From Halorussus ruber (GTDB taxonomy: Archaea; Halobacteriota; Halobacteria; Halobacteriales; Haladaptataceae): 64,000 nt of DNA. Positions 38,994-41,177 of the stretch are shown here, piece by piece. A program made the translations under genes and the position numbers. How positions within the stretch are numbered: the stretch's first letter is position 1; each line of letters begins with the position of its first letter. The notes beneath the pieces are model-generated. The model ran no database searches. It saw nothing but the letters and a program-made list of their open reading frames with translations, and had not been told where the DNA came from. The stretch lies in assembly GCF_004765785.1 (NCBI RefSeq), contig NZ_SBIT01000001.1:248001-312000 (forward strand). Direction: 5' to 3'.

Positions 38994-40151
38994 ATGGAAG
39001 AGCGCACCCGAGCGTACCTCCGCGGTCGCTTCCGCGACCACTACCGACGGAGCGAGCTGACGCCGCCGCCGGACCCGCAGTTCCGCGAGTGGGGCTACAT
39101 CCCGTGGACGACGGGGCCGACGACGATGGTCCGCCACCAGTCGCTGCTGGAACTGGGCGAGGTTGGCGATTTCCTCCAGCGCGAACGCCCGCGCCACGTC
39201 TACTTCTCGGCCGGGCGCTACGACGACCCCGGCGCGGACGACATGGAGGAGAAGGGGTGGCGCGACTCCGATTTGGTCTTCGACATCGACGCCGACCACC
39301 TGACCGGCGTGGACCCCCAGCGGGACTCCTACGGCGAGATGCTCGCCGAGGGGAAAGAAGAGGTCCTGAACCTCGTGGACCTGCTCGAAGACGACTTCGG
39401 CTTCTCGGAGCTGACCGTGGTCTTCTCGGGCGGTCGAGGCTACCACGTCCACGTCCGCGACGAGGGCGTTCGGGGCCTGAATCGGGACGAGCGCCGGGAA
39501 ATCGTGGACTACATCCGGGGTGAAGGTGTGAATTACGAATCAATTATTCAGAAGAAGCAACGGGTAACAACAACTGCTCGTGTAATTCCGAACGAGGGTG
39601 GTTGGGGCCAGCGCATTCATAATACCCTTCTTGCGTTTACTGACGAACTACAGAACCGTGACAAAGATAGCGCATTGAAACGATTGGAATCGTTCGACAG
39701 AATTGGCGGTGAACGAGCAGAGAAAATTCTAGAAGCTGTTTACGACGATTATGAGAAAATTAAGTCCGGTAATATCGAAAAAGGAGGACAGGGGATTCGT
39801 ATCTTAATTAAACATCTCATAAAGGAAACTGTCGAATCCCAGTCGGCCGCCATCGACGAACCCGTCACCACCGACCTCCGGCGGCTCATCCGCCTGCCGG
39901 GGAGCCTCCACGGCGGAACCGGACTGAAGGTCATTCGCATCCCGCGCGACGAGGTCGAGGCGTTCGACCCACTCAGCGACCCGGTTCCCGAGACCTTCGA
40001 GGGCAACGAGGTCGCAATCGAGGTCACCGACCCCGGCCCGGTGGAACTGAACGACGAAAGCTTTACCCTCTCGGACGGTGACGTATCGGTTCCGGAATAC
40101 GTCGCGGTGTTCCTGATGGCCCGCGGTCGGGCGGAGAAGGGGCGCGAATGA
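38994..40151 (+). CDS. priS: DNA primase small (catalytic) subunit PriS
   Basis: 385 residues. It makes RNA or DNA primers with PriL. Catalytic aspartates are in LVFDIDADHL (residues 97, 99 and 101); VVFSGGRGYHVHV holds the conserved SGGRG(Y/F)HV motif, and DLRRLIRLPGSLHGGTGLKV is the nucleotide-binding end. Residues about 180-282 (bases 39530-39835) are encoded by strikingly A/T-richer DNA, about 43% G+C, with non-haloarchaeal codon choice (AAT, ATT, GAA, AAA), while both flanks are ordinary. Protein and frame stay intact, so this looks like a recombined or converted patch. gins51 follows 42 bases later. Confidence 0.95.
   Translation: MEERTRAYLRGRFRDHYRRSELTPPPDPQFREWGYIPWTTGPTTMVRHQSLLELGEVGDFLQRERPRHVYFSAGRYDDPGADDMEEKGWRDSDLVFDIDADHLTGVDPQRDSYGEMLAEGKEEVLNLVDLLEDDFGFSELTVVFSGGRGYHVHVRDEGVRGLNRDERREIVDYIRGEGVNYESIIQKKQRVTTTARVIPNEGGWGQRIHNTLLAFTDELQNRDKDSALKRLESFDRIGGERAEKILEAVYDDYEKIKSGNIEKGGQGIRILIKHLIKETVESQSAAIDEPVTTDLRRLIRLPGSLHGGTGLKVIRIPRDEVEAFDPLSDPVPETFEGNEVAIEVTDPGPVELNDESFTLSDGDVSVPEYVAVFLMARGRAEKGRE
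39530..39838 (+). other. Low-GC patch inside priS
   Basis: Bases 39541-39840 count 128 G+C of 300 (43%), against roughly two-thirds in the rest of the gene. Both edges are abrupt within one or two codons, and the frame is unbroken. Possible gene-conversion tract. Confidence 0.85.
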
Positions 40152-40193: not shown

Positions 40194-41177
40194 ATGAATC
40201 TGGACGAACTCCGCACGGTACAGAGCAAGGAGCGGTCGAAAGACAGCCTCCAGCACCTGCGGGAGTCGTTTTACGCCGACGTGGCCGACTACATCGCCGA
40301 CCTGAAAGACCAGCGCGAGCGGGCGGCCGAGCAGGCAGATAGCCCGTTCGACGACCCTGAGGTCAACCGCCTGACCGACGAGGTCAACACCGCCGAGGAC
40401 GTGGTAGAAGCGATTTACGAGCGCCGCGTCGGCAAAATCGTCAAGCGCGCGAGTCTCGCCGCGGCGGGGATGCCCGCCGACGAGGAGGGCCTGACCAGCG
40501 AGGAGCAGGACCTCTTCGAGGGACTGGTAGAGCGCATCGAGTCGAACAAACAGGAGGTGCTGGACATCCTCGCGGGCGAGGCCGAACCACACTCCGAGTC
40601 GCCGACCCCGACGCCCGCTGACGACGCCGCGTCGGGCGCAGGCGGAGACTCGACTCCTGCGGCGACCCCCGACCCCGGCGACCCGCCTGTCGGGGATTCG
40701 TCCGCTCCCGGCGCGGGCGCAGACGACTCGGGCGAGGTCAGCGCCGCCGACGTGATGGGCGAGACCGACGCCGGAGCGAGCGCCGGGAGTCCGGCGACTG
40801 CGTCGTCGGACTCCGGCGCGGCGGGGTCGGACGGAGATTCGGACGGCGCGCGCCCCGCAGCCGCCGAGGCCGCCGCGATTGCCGACGCACCAGACGAGAG
40901 CGGGCCTGACGCGGACGGACCTGACGCGGAGACAGCTTCGCCTGGGTCGCCGGACGAGTCGCCGTCCGAAGCAGACCCGGACTCCGAACGTGGTGACGAG
41001 GACGGCCCGCTTTCGGGTCTCGCCGAGCGCACGACCGTCCGCATCACCGACGACGTGGGCGAGATTTTCGGCGTGGACGAGCGCACCTACGATTTGGCGC
41101 GCGAGGACGTGGTGACCCTGCCCGAGGCGAACGCCGCGCCGCTCGTGGAGCGCGGCGCGGCCGAGGAACTGGAGTGA
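40194..41177 (+). CDS. gins51: GINS complex subunit Gins51 (Gins15)
   Basis: 327 residues. GINS activates the MCM helicase (CMG complex). The N-terminal A domain is helical (MNLDELRTVQSKERSKDSLQHLRESFYADVADYIADLKD, ERRVGKIVKRASLAAAG, EEQDLFEGLVERIE). The C-terminal B domain is short and stranded (ERTTVRITDDVGEIFGVDERTYDLAREDVVTLPEANAAPLVERGAAEEL). Between them lies about 140 residues of Asp/Ser/Ala/Pro/Gly-rich sequence (about 130-275), a large disordered linker for this family. The priS-gins51 order is conserved in archaea. Confidence 0.92.
   Translation: MNLDELRTVQSKERSKDSLQHLRESFYADVADYIADLKDQRERAAEQADSPFDDPEVNRLTDEVNTAEDVVEAIYERRVGKIVKRASLAAAGMPADEEGLTSEEQDLFEGLVERIESNKQEVLDILAGEAEPHSESPTPTPADDAASGAGGDSTPAATPDPGDPPVGDSSAPGAGADDSGEVSAADVMGETDAGASAGSPATASSDSGAAGSDGDSDGARPAAAEAAAIADAPDESGPDADGPDAETASPGSPDESPSEADPDSERGDEDGPLSGLAERTTVRITDDVGEIFGVDERTYDLAREDVVTLPEANAAPLVERGAAEELE

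Follow-up and report, generated by a model that had tools for sequence, protein, structure and literature searches.

Proteins of the replication core function in tight complexes and for that reason should be resistant to horizontal exchange, and the locus analyzed here raises the question of how a primase gene came to carry a single stretch of deviant composition in an open reading frame. The gene, priS, lies in a 64,000-nt window of a Halorussus genome (G000), a draft of 31 contigs with an estimated contamination of 4.29%. Its product was identified as PriS by a profile search (NF001639 PriS equivalog, 592.6 bits against a cut-off of 577), in agreement with the preliminary description, which held that the protein still looked like PriS across the patch. 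The genome contains one PriS copy. The coordinates of the features discussed below are collected in the table.

Features of priS and of the other genes discussed. Plain numbers are positions in the window; C1 to C3 are contigs of the window genome unless another genome is named.
Feature	Location	Strand	Basis or remark
priS, DNA primase catalytic subunit, 385 aa	38994..40151	+	ORF, profile match
Native left part of priS, start to YIRG	38994..39519	+	94% identical to G007
First catalytic motif, D97/D99	39282-39290		native left part
SGGRGYHVHV motif	39426-39455		native left part
Low-GC tract of priS, helical subdomain, divergent allele	39520..39838, codons 177-282	+	composition, identity, trees
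Native right part of priS, including RLIRLPGSLHG motif	39839..40151	+	91% identical to G007
Third catalytic Asp, D288	39855-39857		native right part
Next gene, putative GINS	40194..41177	+	by position and the H. volcanii priS-GINS operon (PMC7776575)
PriL	C2:154251-155318 (L229:14251-15318; L268)		low GC over aa 1-297, 6-residue deletion at junction
MCM	C2:326495-330163 (L276)		intein and separate low-GC divergent C-terminal winged helix
nrdJ, B12-dependent ribonucleotide reductase	C1:88428-92093 (L200:8428-12093)		low-GC mini-intein, about 175 aa
Three paralogous lineage-specific proteins, about 700 aa	C1:235048-237126, 241464-243638, 355042-357177		low-GC, variable C-termini
PolD large subunit	C3:387773-391375		weaker GC3 dip
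PriS-like sequence in another genome	G430:C1:5222-6411		broken, diverged copy
PriS-like sequence in another genome	G239:C71:23170-23820		26%-identical relative

The deviant tract is 319 bp long and has a GC content of 0.421, compared to 0.680 and 0.673 in the left and right flanks; the corresponding GC3 values are 0.377, 0.898 and 0.845. GC-ending codons make up 40 of the 106 codons of the tract versus 245 of 279 in the rest of the gene (Fisher p = 6e-22), and none of 10,000 shuffles of the priS codons gave a 106-codon window below 0.50 GC. A two-breakpoint fit placed the limits at 39499-39837, and the identity edges in a codon alignment with the nearest congener (G007) fell at 39519-39530 and 39837-39839. 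Identity to G007 in 30-nt windows was 0.80-0.97 before the tract, 0.33-0.63 inside it and 0.83-0.93 after it, and the reading frame is open throughout. The abrupt patch, its sharp edges and its intact frame were thus as first described; the 3’ limit at 39838 was also correct, whereas the 5’ limit of 39530 was about 10 bases short. The adjacent putative GINS gene has a uniformly high GC3 and no such tract. When internal GC3 drops were ranked over 1.24 Mb of the genome, containing 822 genes, the priS tract came second to the nrdJ intein. An intein in priS itself was excluded, as the tract aligned with G007 without gaps, the protein is equal in length to those of its congeners and no intein profile matched it. 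The ungapped alignment also leaves no extra DNA that a mobile-element insertion would have brought in.

We compared the tract and its flanks with the PriS of 17 other Halorussus species, whose named members include H. aquaticus and H. salinisoli, and with those of further haloarchaea. The tract position is high in GC in 17 of the 17 other Halorussus species, making the window genome the only one among 18 with an abrupt low-GC tract. The flanks of the window protein are 94 and 91% identical to those of G007 and 73-94% identical to those of the congeners, compared to 50% identity to G007 for the tract, which is 45-50% identical to most congeners, about 60-61% to G017 and 32% to G013. Separate trees of the two parts gave different phylogenies. 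The flanks grouped with G007 (support 96/94) within an 11-species clade, while a 15-species clade excluded the tract, which grouped with G017 (100/97). AU tests rejected placement of the tract with its own flank clade (p = 0.003) or with G007 (p = 0.0004), and placement of the flanks with G017 (p = 0.0002). A mosaic permutation test was significant in four of five parent pairs (P from 5e-5 to 1.5e-3); with a distant fifth parent it was not (P 0.11). As tract and flanks conflict in AU-supported trees, replacement by a divergent allele, and not local mutation, accounts for the tract. At the level of sequence comparison, these results establish the tract as a recombinational allele replacement and uphold the proposal in the preliminary description that a gene-conversion tract from a low-GC donor lies in an essential replication gene. 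The tract branch is long (1.1 changes per site), as might be expected if local hypermutation or relaxed selection with an AT bias had altered the native priS in situ. The grouping with G017 against the tract's own flank clade, the sharpness of both edges and the retention of conserved residues make such a change in place very improbable.

We further considered whether the subdomain is a general hotspot of recombination. The ratio of tract to flank divergence was 0.9-2.1 in five other genera (112 PriS; 28, 29, 31, 15 and 9 sequences), compared to about 7 for the window genome against G007, and no comparable replacement was seen in these 112 sequences; a general hotspot is therefore unsupported. 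Within Halorussus, the PriS of G013 (L018) has in this subdomain a tract of a third type, which is high in GC, six residues longer and 39-47% identical to those of the other congeners, with flanks mostly 70-87% identical. With G013 included, the AU test rejected monophyly of the genus for the tract (p = 0.038), whereas the flanks keep the genus together. The G013 tract is probably an older replacement, and the genus has probably undergone two or more replacements at this site. In G001 (L017, L050) and in Halorussus halobius (L090, L091), PriS was matched twice with equal scores, on separate contigs, reflecting either duplication or assembly redundancy. Second PriS-like sequences were also present in two other genomes (G430 and G239).

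In a structure model (mean pLDDT 91.9), codons 177-282 form a helical subdomain and a small hairpin, flanked by the SGGRGYHVHV motif on one side and the third catalytic aspartate on the other. Residues D97, D99 and D288, which we take to be catalytic from the known PriS family, are invariant in the PriS alignment and all three lie in native sequence. The right part of the gene also holds an invariant block, DEPVTTD..RLIRLP..HGG, and conserved residues are still present within the tract. The preliminary description had suggested that an altered zinc region might be under selection; the tract contains no cysteine and corresponds to the helical subdomain, so that it does not represent a zinc region. 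Pyrococcus PriS (1g71, 1v33, 9f26) has a mostly helical module at the same site, after the SGGRG-H motif and before the third catalytic Asp. In Sulfolobus PriS (1zt2) the subdomain is reduced, with about 24 residues kept at the tract position in a profile alignment to solved structures, indicating that archaea differ in this helical module. According to a review (PMC4434180), such subdomains in small primase subunits have no structural relationship other than their helical content. The Halorussus case differs from these archaeal subdomains in that the module comes from another allele lineage than the remaining protein. In P. abyssi, PriS residues K239, E240 and E244 touch the winged helix of RPA (PMC11686378), and a profile alignment suggests that these residues map inside the tract. 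Haloferax volcanii depends on both PriS and PriL for viability (PMC7776575) and PriS is single-copy here, so the chimera must work. Primase function is thus expected of it, and the native prim core, which holds all catalytic residues, should keep the enzyme active. The swapped module would then alter regulation or contacts with partners (PriL, RPA, helicase or an antagonist) rather than chemistry.

We attempted to identify the source of the tract. No donor was found among about 470 Halobacteria genomes, in which the best match was G017 at about 60-61%, and a scan of genome contigs with the PriS tract alone gave no match. The preliminary description had offered a Haloquadratum-like organism or a virus-borne primase as the donor. 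The low-GC PriS of G037 (L048), judged Haloquadratum-like from composition, shows about 33% identity and has an insertion absent from the tract, and this candidate was rejected. No relatives of the PriS tract were found in IMG/VR or among phages, and viral, phage and plasmid searches for donors of the PriS, PriL and MCM tracts found none. The sole haloarchaeal plasmid match for PriS was on a Natrinema megaplasmid (59% overall); no other PriS or PriL homologues were found on haloarchaeal mobile elements. The source would be a low-GC relative or a mobile element of haloarchaea, or several of these, and may be one and the same for the PriS, PriL and MCM tracts.

PriL was examined as the obligate partner of PriS. 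The whole gene, which is at the orthologous locus, has a GC of 0.50 and a GC3 of 0.48, versus a GC3 of 0.79-0.92 in 16 congeners. GC3 is 0.41 over aa 1-297 and 0.86 over aa 298-355. The 3’ edge of the tract is sharp and lies near C2:155143, after which nucleotide identity to G007 is about 90%; the 5’ edge is less sharp. The low-GC tract is roughly 50-60% identical to its relatives, with the N-terminus closest to G003/G016, and PriL keeps four alignment-invariant cysteines. Composition and identity strongly indicate that aa 1-297 of PriL are a low-GC replacement similar to that in priS. PriL of G013 was no clear outlier, leaving a joint swap of PriS and PriL as a repeated pattern unsupported.

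A scan of 2.04 Mb (47% of the genome), made with no prior hypothesis, revealed a third tract at the end of the MCM gene. It covers aa 1159-1222, corresponds to the Pfam MCM_WH_arc domain and runs to the stop codon, with a GC3 of 0.31 versus 0.93 just upstream. Identity of this winged helix is 52-56% to those of the congeners and about 50% to those of Halobacteria generally, with no phylogenetic gradient; for the 333-aa C half as a whole, identity to most congeners is 84-87%. By subtraction, the C half without the winged helix would be about 92-96% identical to the congeners, and the absent gradient suggests that the winged helix is ordinarily conserved among congener MCMs. Replacement of the C-terminal winged helix by a low-GC allele, as in priS, is strongly indicated by these comparisons. 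In MCM, the winged helix has a regulatory role and binds Orc1 (PMC11686378; PMC4619765).

The scan kept tracts with a GC under 0.50; a loose version gave mostly wrong-frame start extensions, and filtering on tract GC was then applied. Start-codon artefacts aside, the other strong tracts in the 2.04 Mb were the nrdJ intein and those of three paralogues only, and no strong low-GC tract was found in further widely conserved genes, inteins aside, in about 2 Mb. The larger finding is likely to lie in the three domain-scale replacements that the replisome of this one genome carries: in both primase subunits and in the replicative helicase, domains look exchanged, and the catalytic core of the primase is native. 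An assembly or contamination chimera might be suspected in a draft of this kind, given its contig number and estimated contamination. Both priS edges lie in frame at conserved blocks, there is one PriS copy with native neighboring genes, and the tracts occur in three unlinked genes that share a pathway, so that an artefact of this sort is scarcely credible.

We consider it probable that the three tracts are connected and represent the replacement of domains in the primase-helicase machinery by sequence from a low-GC donor or donors. The PriS helical subdomain was exchanged in frame by gene conversion or homologous recombination, with conserved blocks on either side, and comparable low-GC replacements would have taken PriL aa 1-297 and the MCM C-terminal winged helix. 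The three would be linked by the cooperation of these parts at the fork or by a common partner, with selection on surfaces that primase and helicase would have in common or that a common antagonist would target. Haloarchaea convert genes across species, and in polyploid Haloferax foreign alleles likewise replace residents at homologous loci by interspecies gene conversion or homologous recombination, even from distant species (PMC8223754). The Haloferax tracts exceed 600 bp, are often kilobases long and cover whole ORFs without chimeras (PMC8223754), whereas those described here are 0.2-0.9 kb and end near domain edges inside genes. As known conversion tracts are long and span whole ORFs, the short tracts require that breakpoints were confined to conserved blocks or that the domain itself was selected.

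The same cross-species conversion could also have struck priS, priL and mcm independently, at different times and with essentially neutral effect, from low-GC haloarchaea or mobile elements, the shared pathway then being coincidence or a consequence of the replication genes that mobile elements often carry. The closest matches indeed differ among the three (G017 at 60% for PriS, G003/G016 for PriL, and about equidistant relatives for MCM), and this genome is rich in low-GC accessory ORFs. Plasmid-borne MCM copies exist in Halorussus, and the MCM genes of archaeal mobile elements, which are widespread and exchanged (PMC12934983), would likewise supply foreign MCM alleles. However, none of the plasmid MCMs matches the swapped winged helix above about 55%, and the only PriS or PriL homologue found on haloarchaeal mobile elements was the PriS of the Natrinema megaplasmid. 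The scarcity of other such tracts in about 2 Mb and the similar GC3 of the three (PriS 0.38, PriL 0.41, MCM 0.31) also argue against separate events, which we regard as rather unlikely.

Returning to connected replacement, a narrower proposal is that one selective pressure lay behind a coordinated swap of interacting surfaces (the PriS subdomain, PriL aa 1-297 and the MCM winged helix), revealing either a contact between primase and the MCM C-terminus or a common antagonist; we advance it tentatively, as a possibility with the balance against it. If the swaps were coordinated, they would amount to a natural domain-swap experiment on surfaces that must change together and would bear on the coupling of archaeal primase to the helicase. 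The similar replacements in two partners of PriS suggest such coordination. In the form of an escape, which the preliminary description had raised with respect to viruses, a virus, plasmid or toxin protein would have bound the primase-helicase and recombinants with foreign surface domains would have survived. All three swaps affect whole domains or surfaces and spare the catalytic residues of PriS, and both the regulatory, Orc1-binding winged helix and the mapping of RPA-contact residues into the PriS tract (PMC11686378) fit with such a history. The absence of any identified antagonist, spacer or viral partner, and of an archaeal example in a literature search, weighs against escape, which we judge unlikely.

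Other genes in the scanned part of the genome also carry foreign or low-GC segments. The inteins of nrdJ and MCM, like the priS tract, represent foreign DNA in essential DNA-metabolism genes, the nrdJ intein being low in GC as well; inteins insert and are spliced out, whereas the priS tract replaces homologous sequence and remains in the protein. The nrdJ mini-intein gave no match to a homing endonuclease. The three paralogues match no Pfam family and appear by eye to be caspase-like (CHAT-type). The gene for the PolD large subunit has a weaker dip, with a GC3 of 0.43 over about 30 codons, presumably near the site of known inteins in relatives.
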